NCBI GenBank assembly: GCA_928724745.1
Contig: CAKMXJ010000032.1
Location: forward strand, 1,054,001-1,118,000
DNA from: Anthracocystis setariae
Taxonomy: Eukaryota; Basidiomycota; Ustilaginomycetes; Ustilaginales; Ustilaginaceae
Direction of reading: 5' to 3'
DNA: 64,000 bases
Shown: positions 2,008 to 47,822 of the stretch, in pieces
Layout of the letters: the number at the start of each line of letters is the position of its first letter
Position numbering within the stretch: position 1 is the first letter of the stretch
Program-made: the position numbers and the translations under genes
Notes under the pieces: generated by a model
What the model was told of the DNA's origin: nothing
What the model saw: only the letters and a program-made list of their open reading frames with translations
Databases searched by the model: none

Positions 2008-3330
2008 ATGAAGTTGCAGTCTTTGGTCCCCTTCGTCCTGCTTGCCGCCGGCCTTGGCGCTCAGGCTGCTCCCACTTTGGTTGAGAACTCCAACAGCAAT
2101 GGTCTGGTAGCTCGCAACACGAAGCATCTCCTACACACCTCACTCGCTGCCCGAGACGGTGGTTACGGTGATGATAAGAAGGACGACGATAAGAAGGGCG
2201 GCTACGGTGGCGAGAAGAAGGACGATGATAAGAAAGGTGGCTATGGAGGAGGAGAGAAGGATGATGACAAGAAGGGTGGTTATGGAGGTGATAAGAAGGA
2301 CGATGACAAGAAAGGTGGTTATGGAGGTGATAAGAAGGACGATGACAAGAAAGGCGGCTACGGCGGAGAGAAGAAGGATGATGGCAAGAAGGGCGATGAC
2401 AAGAAGGATGATGACAAGAAGGGCGGTTATGGAGGTGAAAAGAAAGGCGATGACAAGAAAGATGATGGTAAGAAGATGAGCGGTCACGGCGGTGAAAAGA
2501 AGGATGATGACAAGAAGGGCGGCTACGGCGGTGAAAAGAAGGATGATGACAAGAAGGGCGGCTATGGAGGTGAGAAGAAGGGCGATGACAAGAAAGACGA
2601 CGACAAGAAGGGCGGCTATGGAGGCGAGAAGAAGGATGATGGCAAGAAGGGCGATGACAAGAAAGACGACGACAAGAAGGGCGGCTATGGAGGCGAGAAG
2701 AAGGATGATGGCAAGAAGGGCGATGACAAGAAGGGCGATGACAAGAAGGGCGGCTACGGCGGTGAAAAGAAGGATGATGACAAGAAGGGCGGCTATGGAG
2801 GTGAAAAGAAGGGCGATGACAAGAAAGACGACGACAAGAAGGGCGGCTACGGAGGCGAGAAAAAAGACGACGACAAGAAGGGCGGCTATGGAGGCGAGAA
2901 GAAGGATGATGACAAGAAGGGCGGCTACGGCGGCGAGAAGAAGGATGATGATAAGAAGGGAGGCTACGGAGGCGAGAAAAAAGACGACGACAAGAAGGGC
3001 GGCTATGGAGGCGAGAAGAAGGACGATGACAAGAAAGGCGGCTACGGCGGCGAGAAGAAGGATGATGATAAGAAGGGAGGCTACGGAGGAGAGAAGAAGG
3101 ACGATGACAAGAAAGGTGGTTATGGAGGAGAGAAGAAGGACGATGACAAGAAAGGCGGCTACGGCGGTGAGAAGAAGGATGATGACAAGAAGGGCGGCTA
3201 TGGAGGTGAAAAGAAGCACGATGACAGGAAAGGCGGCCAGGGAGGCGAGCACAAGAAGCACGAAGAAAAGAAAGGCGGTTACAAGAAGCACGACGGGAAG
3301 AAGGGCGGATGGGGTCACCACGGCCACTGA
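2008..3330 (+). CDS. secreted Gly-Gly-Tyr / Lys-Asp repeat protein
   Basis: This 440-residue protein begins with a clear signal peptide (MKLQSLVPFVLLAAGLGAQA, probably cut near residue 20) and a short unique pro-region to about residue 50. About two dozen tandem modules of the pattern GGYGGEKKDDDKK follow, varied by KGDDKKDDGKK spacers, then a His/Lys-rich tail ending GGWGHHGH. There is no globular domain, no GPI signal and almost no cysteine. The DNA modules are near-identical and run 2150-3240, so length polymorphism between strains is expected. The alternating acidic/basic residues and regular tyrosines suggest a polyionic cell-surface, matrix or metal-binding role, by composition only. 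Smut fungi secrete other repeat proteins (for example repellents) that Kex2 cleaves at dibasic sites; here KK occurs in every module, so processing is possible but unproven. The ATG is at 2008. Confidence 0.75.
   Translation: MKLQSLVPFVLLAAGLGAQAAPTLVENSNSNGLVARNTKHLLHTSLAARDGGYGDDKKDDDKKGGYGGEKKDDDKKGGYGGGEKDDDKKGGYGGDKKDDDKKGGYGGDKKDDDKKGGYGGEKKDDGKKGDDKKDDDKKGGYGGEKKGDDKKDDGKKMSGHGGEKKDDDKKGGYGGEKKDDDKKGGYGGEKKGDDKKDDDKKGGYGGEKKDDGKKGDDKKDDDKKGGYGGEKKDDGKKGDDKKGDDKKGGYGGEKKDDDKKGGYGGEKKGDDKKDDDKKGGYGGEKKDDDKKGGYGGEKKDDDKKGGYGGEKKDDDKKGGYGGEKKDDDKKGGYGGEKKDDDKKGGYGGEKKDDDKKGGYGGEKKDDDKKGGYGGEKKDDDKKGGYGGEKKDDDKKGGYGGEKKHDDRKGGQGGEHKKHEEKKGGYKKHDGKKGGWGHHGH
2150..3240 (+). repeat. in-frame coding minisatellite (about 39-60 bp units)
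   Basis: Tandem units encode GGYGG(E/D)KKDDDKK. The basic unit is 39 bp (13 codons), and longer variants carry extra KGDDKKDD blocks. Units in the 3' half (about 2850-3200) are the most uniform, suggesting recent unequal exchange there. The frame is kept throughout. Confidence 0.9.
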
Positions 3331-3935
3331 GCCTTTATGGTTGGCTCTCCATGCCGGTTGCTCGTTTTGATCGAAGATTTGCTGATCGCTCAGAAAGTGA
3401 ACGGAGTCATTCCTTTCCGTTTGAAACCCTAAAAGTAGCTTCGGTGCTGCAACTTTCCTGATCGCACTGTCTTGACATGCTCAGCGACAATGACGACGAT
3501 CCTGTCCATGAAATCCAAAGAAATTTCCTGTGCAAGCCTTTAGTGTACGAGGCCGTAGGTTGATTCCCATAGCTGCATATGACGTCGTCCTGTGAGATGG
3601 CACACTGAGTTGGCACTCATTTCAGAGTTGATCCGCAAGGGGTATAATTACTGTGCATGATGCGTACTGTAAGTGATGGCGTCAAGACAAATGGGCTTGG
3701 TTCATACGGAGCAAAGCATTAGGAAAGTGGTGCTTGTGAACCTTAGCTTTGGACTCGAACTGACGGAAACGCGAGACTATGGTGAAGTTGAAAGTTCGTC
3801 AAGACTCGTTCAGAGCTCGTTCTTGCAACAAAGTAGCAACTTGTCGCTGTTGTCATGGTTCATGACGCTTCTTTGGGGTTGAAGAAGACGCCGAAGAGAA
3901 GTGGGGCTGACGCTGACGTGGATGCCAATTTTATC
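3331..3935. other. intergenic, convergent 3' ends
   Basis: About 600 bases lie between the stop of the repeat protein and the stop of the minus-strand membrane protein. They hold only short incidental frames. No RNA gene or repeat was seen; it presumably contains both 3' UTRs. Confidence 0.6.
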
Positions 3936-6101
3936 TCAGCTGGCAGTGTTTGAGTCTCCCTTCACGGCCTGACCCCACCAGGTTGAGAAAGAGGCTGTCT
4001 CTGGACCTGCCGAGGGATTAGCAGTGCGAGACGCATGGTCTTCATCTCGTACGTTCCGAGGGCCTGAATGCTCTCCGTCCTTCTTGACGGAGATGGTCGA
4101 TTTCGAGGCTGCCGATCCTGCATCCTGGCGAGACTCATACCAGGCCCTTGCCTGTGCTTGAGCTGCTTGAATGCGCGCAATCGCATTCACGAGTGAAGGA
4201 GTTGCCGGCACAGATGGGGTCACCGGGGCAGCAGCTTGTGCGTCGGTAGTGGGGAAAGATGGTGGCGGAGACATGGTCGTTGTACGAGAATTGGGTGGAC
4301 GATTTGGCGAGGTGGGGGAAATTGCTGTGCTTCCGCTGAGTCCACTGCTGCTGGAGCCGCTTCCACGGCTATTTGCACTATTTGTGCGGTAGCTTGGCGG
4401 CCTGAGTTGACGACCTGGGCTGTTGATGTCGAATCTGGAGTCTCCACTTGAGCTGAGTGGTTTCAGCTCATCGGCAAGCTCGTAAGCATCTGGCTTGAAG
4501 TGCTTGCTCTTGACCGAAGTTGCCGAGCTGCGTGGTCCCTTCTTGCGCAGGCTCGAGTCGCTATCGTACTCGGTATCATCAGAATCGGAATCCCCAAAAG
4601 TCCGACTTTTGCTAAGCTTGCTCAGTGCCTCGAACTTGGCGGGGCCACCACGAGACTTGGTCGAACGTGTGCGATGCTCGTTTCTCCTGGATTTTGTGCC
4701 AGGAAGATCGGTGAGTGGGCTCTTTTCCAGATCAATCGATGTTGCGTTGTTGCCATACGCAGCCGGACGCGCTGAAGAAGCAAAGACACGAGTCAACTTT
4801 TGCCAGGCGGATGGAGTAGGCTCGAAGGATCCTGCACGGGTTTCCGACAAAGTCTCTTGATCCTCCAGACGCTGAGTGAAGGAGCCGAGATACTCGTTCC
4901 ACTCCCTATCCGGATCTTCAGCTGCATGCTTGTGGAAGACGAATTCAAAGACGAAGCCAACGATGGGACCAAGAACGGCGGCAGCGATGAATGCCTTGAA
5001 GACTGATGTGCCCCACTTTTTAGCAGCATTGACTTGGGAAGGGGAACCGTCTGGAGCGAAGAGTAAAACCCATAGATCGATCCATGAGTCCGAGCTAGGC
5101 TGTGGTGGCGCAAAGACAGCTACCCCATCCAAGAAGGTGACCATACCTATGATCGAGGTGCAGATGTTGAGCAGATGGAAATGAATGGCGTTGCGACGCG
5201 GGATCAAAAGCGGACCTGTGATGAGGGTGGTGCAAATCGAAAGGAAGATTGCACGAATGATCAAGGTACGGATGCCGAACATGGCAGTAATGATGAGGGT
5301 GAAGCAAGCACCGGCGAGAAGACCAGTGAAAGCGCGAGCGAAGCAAGCCCAATGACCGGCGAAGAATGAGCCCAAAAGGCCGGGTAGAAGCCAAATGATA
5401 AAGTAGGAAGTGGAACTGATTGATTCGACTTGTTGAACGCAGATTGCAGCGGTGATTGCCGTGGCAAGGAAGGAGAAGAAAAGAAAACCGATCAAGATGC
5501 CACCTACACCGCCCGCAAGAGGCTTGCCGGTCAGCCAAGCTGCCAATCCACCGATCTTTGCCGCCTTGGGGTCTACCTTGCGCGGGCTGGTGCCGAGGTT
5601 AGAGCCCCAGAAGAAGGAAGCCCATCCAAAGAAGAGTAGGAACAGACCAGAGACGATCCAAGTGACGCAGAGCAGGATGCTCATCCAGTGATGGTCGTGG
5701 ACCAGAGAAGACAAGGAGAAGATCTGATCAAGCGATGTCGCAGGCGTTAAGGGTGGTGAGACGATGTACGCATTGATGGGCATGCTCGAAGCGGAGGAAG
5801 CAGCACTCAAAGAATTTTCGGAAGGTTGGACGAACTTTTGTGGCCACGGGGCATCCTGGTGACCAGCGACGTAGTTTTGAATGGCTTGGGCAACGGCGGA
5901 CGAATCATGACCCTGGTACGATGCGGGCTGTGAACCATAAGAAGAGGCGATCTCTTCAGCTAGCGCTGTCATCTTCTGTGCATGGGCGGCTAAGGCATTG
6001 GCGATGTCCTGTGGATCATGTCCTTGGAAAGTATAGTCAGGATTGGAACCACGGATCGCAACGACTCCTGATGCTGATAGGCCAGAAGCTTGAGGAATCA
6101 T
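3936..6101 (-). CDS. DUF4203 / TM7S3-TM198-like membrane protein
   Basis: The protein has 721 residues. Residues about 22-44 and 60-81 form two similar short units (each with a QGHD motif followed by an Ala/Gln helix). A membrane region follows at about 140-390 with some seven hydrophobic segments, including SILLCVTWIVSGLFLLFFGW and GGVGGILIGFLFFSFLATAI. This matches the fungal DUF4203 (TM7S3/TM198-like) family, whose biochemical role is not known. The C-terminal 330 residues are Ser/Pro/Arg-rich and look disordered, with many possible phosphorylation sites. The ATG at 6101 has no N-terminal signal peptide after it. Family members often have one, so an upstream exon may be missing. The gene is divergent from the arrestin gene, about 1.5 kb away. 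Confidence 0.75.
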   Translation of the reverse strand: MIPQASGLSASGVVAIRGSNPDYTFQGHDPQDIANALAAHAQKMTALAEEIASSYGSQPASYQGHDSSAVAQAIQNYVAGHQDAPWPQKFVQPSENSLSAASSASSMPINAYIVSPPLTPATSLDQIFSLSSLVHDHHWMSILLCVTWIVSGLFLLFFGWASFFWGSNLGTSPRKVDPKAAKIGGLAAWLTGKPLAGGVGGILIGFLFFSFLATAITAAICVQQVESISSTSYFIIWLLPGLLGSFFAGHWACFARAFTGLLAGACFTLIITAMFGIRTLIIRAIFLSICTTLITGPLLIPRRNAIHFHLLNICTSIIGMVTFLDGVAVFAPPQPSSDSWIDLWVLLFAPDGSPSQVNAAKKWGTSVFKAFIAAAVLGPIVGFVFEFVFHKHAAEDPDREWNEYLGSFTQRLEDQETLSETRAGSFEPTPSAWQKLTRVFASSARPAAYGNNATSIDLEKSPLTDLPGTKSRRNEHRTRSTKSRGGPAKFEALSKLSKSRTFGDSDSDDTEYDSDSSLRKKGPRSSATSVKSKHFKPDAYELADELKPLSSSGDSRFDINSPGRQLRPPSYRTNSANSRGSGSSSSGLSGSTAISPTSPNRPPNSRTTTMSPPPSFPTTDAQAAAPVTPSVPATPSLVNAIARIQAAQAQARAWYESRQDAGSAASKSTISVKKDGEHSGPRNVRDEDHASRTANPSAGPETASFSTWWGQAVKGDSNTAS

Positions 6102-40071: not shown

Positions 40072-40872
40072 ATGGCAAAACATGGTACCCCTAAAAAGGC
40101 GCTGGAAGGTGCGGCCTCCGGGCCCACCAAATGTGGGATTGATGCGGATGCAAGCGCCGGACCTTCGTCCAAAAGCTCCCGCACGCATGAGAGTCAGTCT
40201 GTTGCGGACCTGAAAACCCAGCTGGCGCCCCTGGAACACCTGCAGTTTATGTGTTACTTCCCGCTCCCCCCTGAAGGAGTGAAGTTGACTGAGCAGTGGA
40301 TCCTTGTGGTCCCGCTCCAGCCAATGACAGAAGTGCAGGTTGAAAGGTGGCTGAGGGAACAGAAGGTGGGCCTGGAGTATGTGGTCAAAGTTCCTAACAG
40401 GCTTCACCCGGTTTTCTTTGCCGGGTGTATACCTTGTACGTTGGGTGACCTCCCAAATTATAGTGATGGAGGCTACGGTCAGGCTGTCTGTGGCAACCAG
40501 GTCTACCACTTGCTGGTTGAGGAAATTGACGTTGATAATCTTCCGTTGTTGATTGTCACCATCACAGATGTGCCCCCTGGCACCACTACTCTCATGTTGC
40601 AGGAATGGCTGGATACAAAGTGCAAGGCCCATCTTGCGGAATTGGACAACAATGCGGATGAGGGCAAGCGGATGATAGACAATTGCCCTCTCCACGCGTT
40701 TCCGGACTCAAAAACATCCGGAGTCAGTGGGGAAAAGCTAAGTCCTTCTCATGGTCGGGCGAGGCTTTTTTCAACTGGCGTCATAAGCACGCCCACCACA
40801 TGTGGGAAAAGCGCACCTCCTATTGCGCTGTCCAGCCATTTAATTGAGACCATGGGGTGCGCGCATGAGTAG
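40072..40872 (+). CDS. candidate LINE ORF1 protein (3' end may be replaced)
   Basis: ATG at 40072, 266 residues. The Ser/Lys/Ala-rich N-terminus is followed by a folded-looking part (EQWILVVPLQPMTEVQVERW, VEEIDVDNLPLLIVTITDVP) that could be an RRM-like RNA-binding domain, as in ORF1 of other fungal LINEs. After about residue 222 the composition changes and GC rises, so the true C-terminus may have been cut by the foreign block. It is placed as ORF1 because it lies upstream of the endonuclease part on the same strand and shares its AT-rich context. I do not recognise a specific family. Confidence 0.4.
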   Translation: MAKHGTPKKALEGAASGPTKCGIDADASAGPSSKSSRTHESQSVADLKTQLAPLEHLQFMCYFPLPPEGVKLTEQWILVVPLQPMTEVQVERWLREQKVGLEYVVKVPNRLHPVFFAGCIPCTLGDLPNYSDGGYGQAVCGNQVYHLLVEEIDVDNLPLLIVTITDVPPGTTTLMLQEWLDTKCKAHLAELDNNADEGKRMIDNCPLHAFPDSKTSGVSGEKLSPSHGRARLFSTGVISTPTTCGKSAPPIALSSHLIETMGCAHE

Positions 40873-40988: not shown

Positions 40989-41674
40989 GCCCGGAACCGG
41001 TGCTAGTGTTGCAATATACGGTCACCTACTGCATCAACTATCAACCTGACATTACAGACGTTGGTAGGTTCATAACAAGTGCGGTAATATTCCAGCATAG
41101 TTGCCGCCGCCACAATTCCTTGGGACGCGGCCACACGGCCGTGGAAGCAATGCATGTGCCAATGCCAATGTCGGTACTGTGCATTCCCATGAGGTGTGGA
41201 CATTGTGCCTCATCACATTCCTGACTGGAATGTTTACTCGTTGGATCATGTTATTGTCAACATTGTTGTTTATGTTGATGGTCAACCGTACCCTACACTT
41301 AGCAAATAGTTTGTCACTAATGTTATTGCTATAGGGTTCCCCACATTGCTACTAGCAATAACGATGTAGGGGACCAAGGACATAACAACAGAGCCAGCTC
41401 TATACGCCCATCCACCAGTGTGAGGTCTGTAGCAACTTAGCTACTTGCTATAGCATCTTTGGCAGATGATAGACTCATTGCACCTGGCTGCCTCCCGTCA
41501 AGGTTGCCCCTTGGCGCAGTCGACTTCCAATACGTAGAAGATACTTTCGAGGTCGCTGTAATCAGGCTGAATCTCGAATCTGCGGTATCGCGCTCCAAGA
41601 TGTCATGAGTGCATCTGCCCTTAAAACATTTGGCTCGGCAACGTAGAAATGCGAAATTTGGTGATTAGGCAATC
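40873..41674 (+). other. mostly non-coding stretch with one coding-like remnant
   Basis: About 800 bases with many stops. A 52-codon stretch at 41453-41608 (including GAVDFQYVEDTFEVAVIRLN) ends in TGA 66 bp before the next ATG and may be the tail of a decayed upstream gene. The rest shows nothing recognisable. Confidence 0.3.
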
Positions 41675-42571
41675 ATGACGTCCAGACTGTATCTCCCCAA
41701 GCCTATGGGATCCGGCGATTCCGCAAGTGAAGGTGATGGTTCAGAGGCACCAAAGCGCCTGGAGGCGTCAGGCAGCTGGACATGGAGTCACTGCAGTTGG
41801 AAATCGCTCAAATGCAGAACTCGAACGATTTGAGCCGCATGACCGGCGACGAGATGATTAGAGAATGCCTTAAGACGATGAAGACTATAGCTCTGTCTCA
41901 GTCCGCGATGATATCAGAGATAAAGTCCGTCAGATCTCAGGTCGTGATGCTCCAGTCCATCATCACAGATCCAGCGCAAAGGACCGCGCTCCCAACAACC
42001 TCAGCCAATCATCCAGCAATATTGTCCCGCAACGTTTGGATTGGGAGATGCTACTCCCGGAAGCAGGGAGATCACAGATGATGGGCTTAGCATCGTATCC
42101 AGTGCCCCGCATGTGCAGTCCGTGTCAGATGCATCAGAGACCGTCACCATGAGCACAGCACATCAGAAGAACGCGTTCTTTGGGATGACTGTGGACCCTT
42201 ATCTCTGGATGATCTGGGGAATCTCCCAGGACATCAAGGAGATTATGGAGAGATCTTATGGCTGAATTACATCGGGCATGCCCGCATCGAAACTCAGCAC
42301 GTTCAGATCCATCATAACCTCCATTGTGTCACATCTGAAGTGCGATCTTCCGAAGCGCCAAAGCACGTGCTTTGACACCTGCGTGTCTGTGCTTAGAATC
42401 ACCTCCAAGGACTCCCCTCCCCCTATTGACGCCTCCACCATCGCGTCGCTATCGACCCATTCCGGTGGCACCGAGGCCGTATCTGCGCTGAGACAAATAT
42501 TCGGAGCCCTCAAGCAGGTCAATGAGCTCTTCAACGAGCCAATTGTCAGCGGTCGGGCGCCTGGTAAATAG
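41675..42571 (+). pseudogene. frameshifted coiled-coil protein of unknown origin
   Basis: Reading starts at ATG 41675 (MTSRLYLPKPMGSGD), then needs a frame change near 41770 and another near 42045, and crosses a TGA at 42263-42265 before ending at 42571, about 298 codons in all. The first part is acidic and Ser-rich, the middle is a likely coiled coil (MISEIKSVRSQVVMLQSII), and the end is helical (ALRQIFGALKQVNELFNEP). In size and layout it resembles phosphoproteins of negative-strand RNA viruses, but that is an analogy and no conserved motif supports it. It is broken and cannot be expressed as one protein. Confidence 0.35.
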
Positions 42572-42898
42572 GCCGATCTCGGTTCGAGAGCGGTGCGGTC
42601 CTGTTGGGCTGGGCCGCCGGGTTTGTGTTACGCGCCTGTGCAACTGAGAGGTACGAGGTGGGTTGCGCAGGTACGTCGGCGGCCCGATGAGGACTATTAA
42701 GCCGCACTCAATTTGGCGGCGGTGGAGTGTGAGACTCTCGACCGCGTTCGACCTTTTACCGACTGACCGATGTCGGCGCTCCGTTCAGAGGCAGCACGGC
42801 GTACTCGGTACGGCGGCGTGATGGCCCAATGTCTCGTGAGCGCTCTTGACGAGGCAGAAAGCGTGTTGATTGGTTAGATGGTCACTGGAAGTGATCAC

Positions 42899-42947
42899 CA
42901 AGCTGTTACGGCGACGACTTAGGGCCTGACGTCCCGATAACAGCTTG
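42899..42947. repeat. inverted repeat CAAGCTGTTA...TAACAGCTTG
   Basis: Perfect 10-bp arms separated by 29 bp, in a stretch with no coding frame. It could form a stem-loop; function unknown. Confidence 0.6.
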
Positions 42948-43076
42948 TAGGCAGCGTTTACGCGCTGCGGTGTCGATACCGGTACCGACGAGGTCTAGCT
43001 GTTCTCCGACTTGAACGGAGGCACGCGAGGGAGCTGCAATGCTACTTGTATTGCAACTTACTGAACTAGAAACTGA

Positions 43077-43334
43077 ATGATCGTGAAGACGTCGTTAAGA
43101 ATAGATACTGAGCTGAAGACTGGTGTTGTAAGAAGTAGAGTGGATGAGGAGCTCATCCACTACGAGCCAGACGAGGAGGCTTTAAGTACGATCGCTCCAA
43201 GCCCCTATGGCAAGACTGACCCGGCGCTAGCCTATTGTCTAGCTGCATGGCCTGCGTGTGCGCATGTACTGACCGTGGTACAAGCAGCTGATCACCTCCA
43301 AGCCTCTGAGAGCGCCGGAGATGGTGCCCCTTGA
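43077..43334 (+). CDS. small frame of unknown function
   Basis: 85 residues from an ATG at 43077, with a charged N-terminal half (RSRVDEELIHYEPDEEAL) and an Ala-rich end. Coding status is doubtful; the only support is composition and an ATG start. Confidence 0.2.
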   Translation: MIVKTSLRIDTELKTGVVRSRVDEELIHYEPDEEALSTIAPSPYGKTDPALAYCLAAWPACAHVLTVVQAADHLQASESAGDGAP

Positions 43335-43448
43335 CTGTTGATCACCTCGAGATGGTGTTGTCGCGATCCGGCATCCCTACGACGTCGAGCGGCCGCAATC
43401 CGATCGTTAGAAGCAACAGCGGTCGAGAACGACCTTCCAAGCCGCTTT

Positions 43449-43655
43449 CGCTCTGAGTGCGGCCGTAATGCGTGTTTTCCACCGCACCAACTTTTGCCGC
43501 CTGTGAGTAACGCCACCGCTAAATACGACGCACTGCCGGCAGCGTACCTCCTCTCTTTCAATGCCAGCGCGTCCGAATATACCTCTATCGACCGCGCTTG
43601 AACTGAGAGCGGCCGAAAAGCAGGTTTTCCGCCGCCTCGGCTTCACCGCCTGTGA
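43449..43655 (+). repeat. imperfect direct repeat of about 57 bp
   Basis: 43449-43505 and 43598-43655 share the pattern CTGAGnGCGGCCGnAAnGC followed by GTTTTCCnCCGC and GCCTGTGA, about 150 bp apart. This looks like an old duplication. Confidence 0.55.
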
Positions 43656-44053
43656 CACCAATGAGGTCCATGTTTGCAGTGTTCGGCGAGCATATTGTAA
43701 CGCCAACGGGAAGCTACGACGTCGACTACGCTGTGCTCAAGGACACGATTGAGGAGAACATCCGCAGGGATGTGGTCGAAGTGCCATTCCGCTCAATCAA
43801 GGCGTACGTGTGCTGCCGCCTGATCCAAAGGCTCAGTCCACATGAGGCTCTTGAGTCCTTGGATGCGGCGGGTAGTGCAGTCGCCAGCACGTCAGGGGCC
43901 TGGAACGTGTCCCAGATCCGTGGCGTGACTAAGCGCGGTCCGTCGAGAGCCAGCAGCATTGCGCCCAGCGATTCCGCATCCCAGGTCGGAGCCTACGGCG
44001 CAACGCTGTATCGGGTCGGCCAGCATGGGATAAGGATCAGGACGACTCGCTGA
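43652..44053 (+). CDS. unknown 130-residue protein facing the polymerase-like gene
   Basis: The frame includes ATGs at 43661 and 43670, giving about 128-130 residues. The N-terminal two thirds look folded (FAVFGEHIVTPTGSYDVDYA, EVPFRSIKAYVCCRLIQRLS), and the C-terminus is Ser/Arg-rich. It ends 70 bp before the stop of the RNA-polymerase-like frame on the other strand. I do not recognise a family. Convergent packing with that frame suggests both came from the same element. Confidence 0.35.
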   Translation: MTPMRSMFAVFGEHIVTPTGSYDVDYAVLKDTIEENIRRDVVEVPFRSIKAYVCCRLIQRLSPHEALESLDAAGSAVASTSGAWNVSQIRGVTKRGPSRASSIAPSDSASQVGAYGATLYRVGQHGIRIRTTR

Positions 44054-44123
44054 GAGCTGGACTCTGGAGCACATGAGTGGAGGTCCCCGGGGCGTAGAGT
44101 TTTAAAATCTGAAGACCTGGCGC

Positions 44124-46490
44124 TCAGACCTCATCAAAGTCATACACAAACAACAACGGGGGCATTTGATCACGAGCGTTTGGTTGCCTTGAACCCGGAA
44201 GGTCAGCGTCAGGGCCATCGACGCTCCGATGCGCATGAGCCGCAGGTCGGGTTGCTTCAGGGCTCATGGTACTTCGACGCCCGGCCACACGGGAGCCAGA
44301 GGCCTGAGGATCAGGGCAAGCGTATCCTGACATCCCGAGGCTGTAGGTAGCCATGCAGACATCAGCCCGGGCTGTGCTGTACCAAACTTGGGCTTGCATC
44401 GTGTCAATACAGCCACCAGCACAATCGCATAGGATCGACAGCCTCCGACATTTCAAGCACAGCGTCACAATCGCCATATCGCTACAGTCCAACATCTCGG
44501 AGACGCACCCAATCATGCCTTTGGAGAGCAGAGCCAGCAGTTCCATCTCCCCAACACGGACCGAGCTTCCGGAGAGCCTACCTGCAGGAGTGGAAAGCCC
44601 ATGTGGCACCTCGGAGCTGAACTGCTGCTTGTCCCTCACCATGTGGCCTAGCTGCCAGACTCTTATGACGCCGTAATCGGCAACGCATGGGCCTCCCAAC
44701 GGATCGTTCACAAGTGGCTTATGCCCCAATCTCCCGAGCTCTGTGAAATTGCACGTTGTGGGCTCAAGCGATCTGTAGTCCTCGCCGAGGGTCGCTGTGA
44801 TGTAAGGCTTGCAGTCAATGGTGTCATTGTACTGAGCCACGTCAACCACAGATGCGCCAGCCCTGGCCTCGTATATCTGGCCGGCCGTCATCCTGTTGCT
44901 CACGGACAAAGAGGCCATGATGATATGAGGCTTGAACGTCTTCCTCCTCACCGGGTTGTAGCACGTGGGCATGTGATCTCTAGGGAGCACCGCCGACACG
45001 GTCTGCTTCTGACCATGCGAAGTGGCCACCTTGTCACCAGGGATCAGACCCAATTGGGCGATGGCTGCATCCACGTATGGGTCCCTGGTCTTTCCATATC
45101 CCATTCGCATGCCGTAACCTTCAGATGCGGGCCTCCACCACGGATGCGACTTGGCGGTGAGAGTCTGCCCCACAAGATCTCGTCGCTCCGAGCTGGGGAT
45201 TGGATGACTGACAAAGCCGGTGGCATGGGAACCCCTGAGCGTGGCATTCTCCGAGCTCACCACTACAGAGTCCTCATACGTGCCTCTGAAGTTCGCGAAC
45301 AACACGATGAGGTCGATGCCCGGAAGTACGCACTCGTCAGGCGGCGATGACTCGGCAACGATCTTCCCCAAGGGCGTCATGACTCGAGGCCTTGAGCACG
45401 CGACTGGAGAGATCGTAGATGCAACGGACGTACTCCCGAAGGCGATGGCTTGAGGGGCCATAATGCTTCCAAGCATTGGCCTCGGCTGCTCATCAGCAAG
45501 GAAATACGGGAACAGCCACGCGTGGGTTCTCGCATACTCCAGCGCTTCTGATGGCCGGCTTTCGCTGATCCCTAGGCTGGCGCGCTGCTCTGTGCTGTTG
45601 AACACGTACGAGTCCACCCACATTCCCTTGTCGGGATCGATGTCCCCGATTGTGGAATCTGCACAGTCCGCAGATAGGAGCCGCAGTGGCCTCATGAGGC
45701 AGCCCGACGTAGATGCGATGACGACGGTCTTGATGGCCTCGTGGACATGCAGGCTGGGAGTCCTGAATCCGGTCATGCCCCGCCATAGCTCAATGGCCGC
45801 GCAAACTTGGGACTCCGTGACACGCCTGACTGTGCCGTAGAAGTACATTGCCCAGCGGCGGCCGGAGTTTGAGTCGTCATGCTCGCGGAGGACGTCGAGT
45901 AGCGCTTGAGTCTTCGACCATAGGATGCTGTCGAGGACTCGAATCTGGACGCCGTGGACTAGCGCCATGACGTTCCCTGCATCCAGGCTCGCCGCGGTGA
46001 AACTCGGGTCTATGAAGCCATCCCAACACTCGAGGTGCTTACGGCGGTCAGGATCTGAGGCAACGGCATGGCTGGCGTCAGGCTCGTAGTGCCTCATGTC
46101 CACGACGCAGTTGTCCTGGATTAGCCCCATTAGGTTATCGCGACTTGCGACCGCCATGGATCCAGCGTAGATGGCGTCCCATGGGAAATCTCCCTCTGCA
46201 CCGTCTACAATCTCCATCTCGCGTTTGGCCACAGATGTGAAGAAGTGCAGAGGAGGGTCCTGGTACGCGATGGCCAACTGCCTGCGGATGCCGGTAGATG
46301 CGGTTCGTTTGGTGATCACACCTTTGATCACCCAGGCGGCCGACACTTCCCTCACGGAGCTCCAGAACTCGTCGACTGATCGATGCCGTGCCTCGTCGAT
46401 ACAGCCGAAGTGCACTGTGGCGTCATGGATGAACGGGTACGCGTGACTCGGCACAAACCGCCGCGGGAACACCACGTCGCTCCCTGGCAC
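44124..46490 (-). CDS. orphan RNA polymerase beta (Rpb2-like) subunit, start codon missing
   Basis: 788 codons are open without a stop. Signatures of the second-largest subunit of multisubunit RNA polymerase occur in the right order. An N-terminal HRSVDEFWSSV block is followed by SGCLMRPLRLL (like GRLxRPL), a proline-containing FPYFLADEQPRP block, NFRGTYEDSVVVS (like GYNFEDS), GDKVATSHGQKQT (like GDKFASRHGQKG, both lysines kept), NRMTAGQIYE (like RMTIGHLIE), VRVGEMELLALLSKG (like FGEMERDCMIAHG) and a C-terminal Cys cluster CLKCRRLSILCDCAGGC. It is far shorter than Rpb2 (about 1200) or bacterial beta (about 1340). The frame reaches 46490, where LINE sequence begins, with no ATG, so a few N-terminal codons are lost or an upstream exon is missing. 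It is not the cell's own Rpb2; likely sources are a DNA virus or a cytoplasmic linear plasmid. Confidence 0.75.
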   Translation of the reverse strand: MPGSDVVFPRRFVPSHAYPFIHDATVHFGCIDEARHRSVDEFWSSVREVSAAWVIKGVITKRTASTGIRRQLAIAYQDPPLHFFTSVAKREMEIVDGAEGDFPWDAIYAGSMAVASRDNLMGLIQDNCVVDMRHYEPDASHAVASDPDRRKHLECWDGFIDPSFTAASLDAGNVMALVHGVQIRVLDSILWSKTQALLDVLREHDDSNSGRRWAMYFYGTVRRVTESQVCAAIELWRGMTGFRTPSLHVHEAIKTVVIASTSGCLMRPLRLLSADCADSTIGDIDPDKGMWVDSYVFNSTEQRASLGISESRPSEALEYARTHAWLFPYFLADEQPRPMLGSIMAPQAIAFGSTSVASTISPVACSRPRVMTPLGKIVAESSPPDECVLPGIDLIVLFANFRGTYEDSVVVSSENATLRGSHATGFVSHPIPSSERRDLVGQTLTAKSHPWWRPASEGYGMRMGYGKTRDPYVDAAIAQLGLIPGDKVATSHGQKQTVSAVLPRDHMPTCYNPVRRKTFKPHIIMASLSVSNRMTAGQIYEARAGASVVDVAQYNDTIDCKPYITATLGEDYRSLEPTTCNFTELGRLGHKPLVNDPLGGPCVADYGVIRVWQLGHMVRDKQQFSSEVPHGLSTPAGRLSGSSVRVGEMELLALLSKGMIGCVSEMLDCSDMAIVTLCLKCRRLSILCDCAGGCIDTMQAQVWYSTARADVCMATYSLGMSGYACPDPQASGSRVAGRRSTMSPEATRPAAHAHRSVDGPDADLPGSRQPNARDQMPPLLFVYDFDEV

Positions 46491-47540
46491 TTTTTTGGGT
46501 GCTATCTACCAGCAGGGGATAGGGCCAGTTGGAGACGGCGACGAGTACATTTGTTGGATAAGCTACTCCGTCATATTCATTGCCTGCTGGTTAATGAATC
46601 ATTGGCAAAAATTGTTCTTCTTGGGGATCTAAATATGGGCTCAAATGTGTTAGAAATTTGTATCCAACAAATTTCTAGTTCTATGAAGGAGATTCCTGTG
46701 CAAGGGTCAGCTATTACTCGGCAAGGAATTCATACATTGAGGCAGTTAGACCATATTCTTGCTTCTGATGCAGCAATGAATATGCTTTGACCTGCTAAAG
46801 TTTCTAGGGTAACTGGGGATTTAAGTGACCATTGGCCTCTAGTAACTTATCCACATAAGAATGTGGAAAAAATTCCAAAGTTCCAACAAAGTAAATTACA
46901 GGAATATTGGAATCTGCCTCTCTTAAAGGTCATGGTAGCACTTTAATTACTTGAGAATGAGTTACCTGATGAACCTTCCAATGAGGATTTAGTAGAGTGT
47001 ATAAAATCAAAGGCTAGAGAAACTGGGATCCTCTGTTTGGTGCGCAAAGGCTCCCAGCCCTCATGGCCCTGGGCATTGGTAAAAAAAATGGCTTGGTGGC
47101 GGCAGATGGAAAAGGAATATTCTCGGGATAAGGATATTTTGTGGTTAGCAAAAATTGACTTGCTTGCAATTCAAATTAAGAGAGATAAGGCAAAGTGCGC
47201 TAAGATGGACAAGAAGAAGAGATACCAAAAAATCTCAGAGGATTGTAAGCATCATGAGGGTCAAAACCTACATAAAAGGTTAGATAGAATTATTGGGCTC
47301 TCAAAAAAGGTATTGCTTGGTAACCTCCCTGTTCATAATGTAGGGGGGACCCTGCATACCACGCCAGCAGCCATTAAAGAATGTTATAAATATTACTTTA
47401 ATAAATTGCATAGCAATCCCACGGGCCAATCTGAGAATGATGATGAGTGGAAACAATTGACTCAACATTATACTCAGATTCCTTGAATGACTCCTTGTGA
47501 TTGGCTCAATCAGCCTATTACACCAAAGGAATTATTTTTG
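46491..47540 (+). pseudogene. LINE ORF2 fragment: APE-type endonuclease and linker
   Basis: One frame carries GCYLPAGDRASW, LLGDLNMGSN, LDHILAS and LSDHWPLVTY, the motif series of the apurinic-like endonuclease of non-LTR retrotransposons. A Lys/Trp-rich linker (WWRQMEKEYSRDKDILWLAK) and the pre-RT segment WLNQPITPKELFLAI follow. Stops interrupt at 46788 (TGA), 46943 (TAA) and 47484 (TGA), each one C-to-T step from CGA or CAA. The match ends at about 47540, just where the reverse transcriptase should begin. The part upstream of the GCYLPAG motif is missing. Confidence 0.7.
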
Positions 47541-47822
47541 GCCATCCGCGTCCGCAACAACAACAAAACAAGGCGACAAAGGGGCTGCGCTCCGCTTGCC
47601 CGTGTGCTAGTGCGCCACTGCGCAGCTGTGCCAGTGCAGTCTGTTAGCTTACAGCTGGGCTGTGCAATTCTCTCATCCATTCCCCCTTGATAGTCCTAAG
47701 TGTCAATCCAAGGCGCTTTATTTTTGTCTCACCTCTGACGCCCACACTGCAACAACAGCAGGACAAGCAACAAAGGGGCTAGAGCCAAGAGAGGGGCGTC
47801 GACAGCCGTATGATACCTGGGC

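Follow-up and report, generated by a model that had tools for sequence, protein, structure and literature searches.

The window, a stretch of 64,000 nucleotides from Anthracocystis setariae, carries a gene for a divergent beta (Rpb2-type) subunit of a multisubunit RNA polymerase. The 5' end of the gene has been replaced by repeat DNA. Together with a decayed neighbour gene, it rather likely forms the remains of a once extrachromosomal DNA element, virus- or plasmid-like, with a multisubunit RNA polymerase of its own; these remains now lie in a nuclear chromosome. The same gene pair occurs a second time in the genome, on contig C2, where the damage is reversed.

The features of the locus are listed below (positions are those of the window).

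41005..41541, plus strand: repeat fragment of another family, probably LTRs; left border of the relic
41672..42265, plus strand: three weak pieces in changing frames, possibly the N-terminal half of the neighbour gene
42266..42568, plus strand: decayed neighbour gene, part 1, corresponding to residues ~227-318 of its relative P0008 (404 aa); in-frame TGA just before, at ~42263
42544..43657, plus strand: solo LTR (TGTCAGCGG...CCTGTGACA) within the neighbour gene, with a 5-base target duplication CCAAT
43664..44053, plus strand: decayed neighbour gene, part 2 with stop codon, P0008 residues ~326-402; convergent with the polymerase gene
44054..44123, no strand: spacer of 70 bases between the convergent genes, with the core TTTTAAAA
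44124..46478, minus strand: beta/Rpb2-like RNA polymerase subunit gene, 5'-truncated; 784 codons attributed to the element plus stop; lacks P0002 residues 1-78
46479..46490, minus strand: first four codons of the open frame (GTG CCA GGG AGC); repeat DNA, not polymerase gene
46479..47560, plus strand: repeat fragment, LINE-like, right border of the relic; one other genome copy of its first 468 bases (93%)

A truncated gene for a divergent beta subunit

The open frame of 788 codons given in the preliminary description is confirmed at 44124-46490, on the minus strand. At its own base composition an open run of this length has a probability of about 1e-12, and each of the other five frames of this segment contains 18-34 stops (18 in the forward reading of the plus strand). 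Hence we reject a chance open frame. The third codon position of the frame is rich in G+C (0.686).

The frame encodes a divergent beta/Rpb2-type subunit of a multisubunit RNA polymerase. Its protein matches the hybrid-binding domain of Pfam (RNA_pol_Rpb2_6, PF00562) with 42.9 bits (E 4.7e-11; curated cut-off 23.4), and this domain lies above the cut-off in seven of seven family proteins (35.7-55.6 bits). The C-terminal zinc/clamp domain Rpb2_7 (PF04560) scores 18.4 bits in the window protein, below its cut-off of 32.1. C-terminal cysteines are seen in six of the seven family rows; the other row, P0003, is gapped there. Pfam Rpb2 domains 1-3, the N-terminal protrusion and lobe, find no match in the family proteins. 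The N-terminal half of the family is much shorter than its cellular counterpart and has a conserved character of its own that is common to the family proteins.

Profile searches lead to RNA polymerase throughout. In a profile-profile comparison, the family aligns with the genome's own three paralogues over 516 columns (E 1.4e-15), in the same order from the PR motif of the fork to the C-terminal cysteines. Among solved structures the best sequence match of the family profile is archaeal Rpo2 (E 9.5e-21). The profile also finds vaccinia rpo132 (E 2.5e-10).

The ordered signature boxes noticed at first are present: PR (336-337), TYEDS (404-408), GDKVATSHGQKQ (485-496), NRMT (532-535), GEMEL and CxxC...CDC follow one another in the window protein. 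Both lysines of the GDK...HGQK motif, which have a catalytic role, are conserved (K487 and K495), and the Arg and Gly of the cellular SRHGQKG are replaced by Ser and Gln, as had also been observed. When the window protein is aligned with subunits of archaea, of viral contigs and of the fungus itself, E406/D407 stand at the places of yeast Rpb2 E836/D837, and R337 and R533 at those of R766 and R1020. According to PMC3533926, the first pair belongs to metal B and the two arginines contact the NTP. In one family member, P0006, the residue that corresponds to R1020 is His. The window protein has Thr and Ala where yeast Rpb2 has the switch residues N834 and N1013. Departures found across the family are HGQKQ for HGQKG, the loss of the Arg before HGQK and the loss of the TRQP motif.

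The gene is not intact, as had been thought. Homology to P0002, the nearest full-length relative, starts at P0002 residue 79, which corresponds to window position 46478; residues 1-78 are missing. A copy of the adjoining repeat on contig C12 begins at the same base as 46479 and is preceded by different DNA. Hence the frame opens with four codons of repeat DNA, GTG among them, and we reject an intact gene. The repeat was labelled LINE-like by inspection of its frames, without a library match. The first Met of the 788-codon frame is residue 92. A search of the window for the missing N-terminus gave chance-level matches at most; N-termini of the P0002 type are poorly conserved.

Relatives, a second locus and a linked gene

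In a database of 5.8 billion proteins we found six relatives of the polymerase, and the same six emerged from scorings of 7,991 and of 7,992 candidates. Six is a lower bound because the search sees only proteins that share 5-residue words. One relative, P0003, is an uncharacterised 'DNA-directed RNA polymerase' of Ustilago esculenta (A0A481SH47; 633 aa, with several large gaps). The others (P0002 and P0004-P0007) carry the source codes lgn, jgi, ena and src, which we take to denote read-archive and metagenome assemblies. P0002, P0004, P0005 and P0007 are full-length (817-862 aa) and possess the N-terminus that is absent from the window gene. The relatives show the same boxes and are 34-66% identical to the window protein over shared columns. 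In all, we found eight sequences of the family, namely seven proteins and the C2 copy, and the open-licence literature searched yielded no published account of it.

The word 'orphan', used in the preliminary description, is not exact, since the genome holds a linked neighbour gene and a second copy of the polymerase gene. The second copy (C2:1263875-1267542) is broken into pieces that are 39-46% identical. It is interrupted by a solo LTR (target duplication TGGTC) and by about 350 bases of other DNA. At a distance of 82 bases lies an open gene of 404 codons, convergent with the polymerase gene. The tail-to-tail pair of polymerase and neighbour gene is thus common to the window and C2, and the damage is reversed: on C2 the polymerase gene is cut and the neighbour open, in the window the polymerase gene is open and the neighbour damaged. 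The borders of both relics are other repeats; for the window this agrees with the earlier placement of the frame amid transposon pieces, as repeats flank it on both sides. On the 5' side of the C2 copy, upstream of its N-terminal part, there is also a stray C-terminal polymerase fragment (L010:6947-7150; 93% identical to the main copy over 88 bases), which could stem from a duplication or from repeated capture.

That the site is chromosomal is shown by the target duplications of both solo LTRs and by host genes to its left and right. The host genes that flank the window relic encode a fungal-specific transcription factor, a mitochondrial carrier and a PIG-N homologue.

Decay of the neighbour gene in the window is harder to count. 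Only two of its five pieces are clear matches (0 of 500 shuffles as good). None of the pieces at 41672..42265 is clearly significant; the best is equalled by 12 of 500 shuffles, against the C2 protein only. The number of lesions varies with the alignment, from three TGA and one TAA to one stop. Judged from these alignments, an in-frame stop is likely, and frame changes in the barely recognisable N-terminal half are probable. The neighbour gene has one database relative, P0008, which is 50% identical. We rejected a Rpb3/Rpb11-like subunit as its product, because PF13656 reaches E 0.047 in P0008 only and does not match the C2 member. Against PDB sequences the neighbour protein has no match up to E 10.

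The proposed element and rival readings

We infer an extrachromosomal origin, an element size near 20 kb, and the site and role of transcription as follows. By homology, the beta protein would be half of a two-subunit catalytic core. The window gene would supply the side of the active site that binds metal B and the phosphates of the NTP, together with the lysine loop of HGQK and the cysteines near the C-terminus. For the largest subunit we postulate another gene, located elsewhere on the element. Paired with this separate beta-prime subunit, the enzyme of the living element would transcribe the genes of the element independently of host Pol II; if the resemblance to the linear elements of yeasts extends that far, transcription would be extranuclear. 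Pieces of a two-gene cassette, consisting of the polymerase subunit gene and a fast-evolving second gene arranged tail to tail, lie at two loci, and chromosomes thus captured it at least twice. LTR retrotransposons and another repeat later interrupted these pieces. About 3.8 kb of the element, with two genes, would remain in the window (41542-46478 minus the solo LTR).

The size estimate comes from the contigs of the relatives. The longest contigs of P0002, P0004, P0005 and P0007 measure, as a set that is not paired with the individual proteins, 19,924, 20,328, 20,682 and 24,574 bases. These sizes suggest an element near 20 kb, although their near-equality may be chance. Other observations weigh against this reading. 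The longest contig of P0006 has only 4,703 bases. P0008 is found on five contigs, and the longest of these (19,224 bases) is not among the longest contigs given for the polymerase relatives. A search of IMG/VR found no relative of the polymerase family. Finally, the polymerase frame is open and constrained, which a dead relic need not be.

A more specific version, which we consider about as likely as not, is a lineage of elements with an unfused polymerase and a size of about 20 kb, as yet undescribed, which smut-like fungi carry or carried until recently and which is distinct both from giant viruses and from the linear elements of yeasts. The window and C2 loci would be two independent fossils of this lineage. 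Small genetic elements with their own multisubunit RNA polymerase are known from few groups. The relic probably points to a group of fungal DNA elements about which little is known. A rare family whose beta subunit is compact and stands alone would widen the range of places where such elements live, and it would test how far a multisubunit polymerase can shrink. For a search for the element, the chromosomal relics provide the probe, suggest which hosts to examine and indicate the size to expect.

The polymerase gene has 58.6% G+C and the C2 neighbour gene 57.7%. In favour of an extrachromosomal element, the codon usage of the two correlates better between them (0.70) than with that of six pooled host genes (0.62 for the polymerase gene and 0.41 for the C2 neighbour); each host gene against the rest gives 0.69-0.86 (all correlations without length correction).

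To place the family we used a tree of 348 columns and 36 rows: 6 of the family, 3 of the fungus's own paralogues, 12 of 80 archaeal loci and 15 of 26 viral-contig loci. The 15 viral-contig rows, including the ten joined in one of the AU tests, are presumably giant viruses. Poxvirus, baculovirus and yeast-plasmid subunits stand outside this tree, as does P0003 on account of its gaps. With 100/100 support the polymerase family forms one clade, whose stem measures about 4.2 changes per column (2.56 + 1.68). The deep forks are weak because long branches meet (P0007 and Rpa2) and the three fungal paralogues do not form one group. The Rpb2 row (L006) has an apparent read-through intron near the fork.

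Seven constrained unions of the family were compared by AU tests (p uncorrected). Union with all three fungal paralogues gives a p-AU of 0.003, with Rpa2 0.038, with Rpc2 0.038 and with Rpb2 alone 0.093. Union with ten viral rows costs 0.85 log units (p-AU 0.385), with all 15 viral rows p-AU is 0.062 and with archaea 0.282. A recent copy of Rpa2, Rpb2 or Rpc2, the outcome against which the preliminary description had been set, is excluded by the separate clade and its very long stem, together with the result for all three paralogues.

The relic could alternatively be a fragment of a nucleocytoplasmic large DNA virus (NCLDV) that infected a fungal ancestor, and the polymerase a fast-evolving NCLDV Rpb2. 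NCLDV Rpb2, for example vaccinia rpo132, has the same catalytic boxes and is statistically joinable with the family, as the small cost of union with ten viral rows indicates. The best fold matches of the protein model in BFVD are pithovirus, ascovirus and poxvirus subunits; this search is not independent, because the alignment behind the model held viral and archaeal rows. Yet the union is absent from the free tree, where NCLDV Rpb2 is not sister to the family, joining all 15 rows fares worse, and archaea do nearly as well as the ten. The undivided frames of the viral contigs encode 1,067-1,279 aa, whereas the full-length relatives are 200-460 residues shorter, and the longest contigs of four relatives lie near 20 kb. 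We therefore regard an NCLDV fragment as unlikely.

A second alternative concerns the present rather than the past: the gene may have been domesticated and now serve the fungus, for instance as a decoy or as a modified subunit of an RNA polymerase. Its 784 codons are open, while the linked gene is interrupted by a solo LTR and probably also by stop codons and shifts of frame. At sites where five relatives agree, the window protein departs at only 3 of 139, which shows neither neutral wear nor an excess of private changes (P0002 departs at 7 of 143). In the columns covered by P0003, departures from four outgroups number 21/107 in P0003, 15/107 in P0002 and 12/107 in P0001. The preliminary description had taken the contrast between decayed neighbours and an undecayed frame as a hint of recent arrival or retained function. 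Within the window the contrast stands, given the solo LTR and the likely stop, but on C2 it is the polymerase gene that is cut and the neighbour that is open. Hence an open frame alone does not prove selection. If all three small lesions are real, the chance by length that all of them hit the neighbour gene is about 0.04 (hand arithmetic), so the contrast in the window is weak evidence.

Domestication also sits badly with the loss of the start codon, along with the 5' end, to a repeat, and with the partner genes in the genome. A matching beta-prime-like gene, a capping enzyme and a DNA polymerase B had been named as possible companions. PF00623, a domain of the largest subunit, was found at three places in the genome, in frames of 1,430-1,800 aa; Pol I, II and III together would account for three, and a search for a beta-prime-like gene found none beyond these. 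A single PF01331 match is taken to be the cellular capping enzyme. The poxvirus-type capping domain PF10640 has no match in the genome, and the controls are equally empty. Plasmid-type family-B DNA polymerase (PF03175) has two occurrences in the genome, both on C24, a contig of 73.8 kb with 26% and 30% G+C in the two stretches examined. C24 is probably mitochondrial DNA with integrated linear-plasmid genes. The two PF03175 frames lie near both ends of this contig (C24:70520-71803 and 3262-4557; L018 and L019) and encode 768 and 766 aa.

Since the window copy has no start codon of its own and the genome no extra nuclear largest-subunit gene, a relic is favoured over a working gene. Domestication seems quite unlikely to us; most likely the window copy is a relic of recent date that no longer works as a polymerase. 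In the chromosome, with neither start codon nor partner, the polymerase gene should be inert.

A further possibility is that the element belongs to the same group as the cytoplasmic linear virus-like elements of yeasts (pGKL2 type). The two would be alike in kind, with a reduced multisubunit polymerase encoded by a small non-cellular fungal element: PMC6211774 describes such a polymerase, of viral type, for the yeast elements (ORF6 and ORF7 of pGKL2), and a proposal there is that this enzyme transcribes the genes of the element without host Pol II. Some elements of this type are known from one basidiomycete species, Tausonia pullulans, according to PMC8472843. However, the large subunit of pGKL2 joins beta and beta-prime in one protein, whereas, judged by Pfam domains and motifs, beta stands alone here. 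All seven family proteins lack a Rpb1-type Pfam domain and the motif NADFDGD, and a looser pattern gave only DIDPD and DVDPD in two of the seven. The elements of three yeasts exceed 75% A+T according to PMC4431711 and are thus AT-rich, in contrast to the GC-rich polymerase gene, whose composition could have shifted after integration. The longest such element known in 2021 had 15.1 kb (PMC8472843). Membership in this group is improbable.

Thus a foreign element is the best source of the polymerase, as first suspected. Neither of the two sources then suggested, linear plasmids and giant viruses, is borne out, as the beta subunit is unfused, the DNA lacks the richness in A+T, and no firm place for the family comes out of the tree.

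The family shares with cellular Rpb2, Rpa2 and Rpc2 and with archaeal Rpo2 the metal-B and NTP-contacting residues. It is set apart from them by the absent TRQP, by HGQKQ instead of HGQKG, by NRMT instead of SRMT and by the shorter N-terminal half. An old, decayed or fast-evolving duplicate of nuclear Rpa2, Rpb2 or Rpc2 is very improbable: union with Rpb2 alone is tolerated, but the unions with Rpa2, Rpc2 or all three fare poorly (seven tests, uncorrected), the six family rows share one long stem, and the family has its own conserved N-terminal half.

Repeats and spacers

The solo LTR in the neighbour gene belongs to a family with at least 42 matches in the genome. Nine same-strand pairs of matches are about 8.5-8.6 kb apart, so the family is a retrotransposon. 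Some of its matches are clustered in opposite orientation (for example C32:649135-653211). The repeat at 41005..41541 probably consists of LTRs because same-strand copies of it lie about 7.7 kb apart. Beside the relic, at 40072-40872 of the window, is an open frame of 266 codons, for which Pfam gives no match at E 0.001. The spacers between the convergent genes both have AT-rich palindromic cores, TTTTAAAA in the window and GTTTAAAC in the 82-base spacer of C2 (L010:3215-3296), which are possibly a two-way termination signal.
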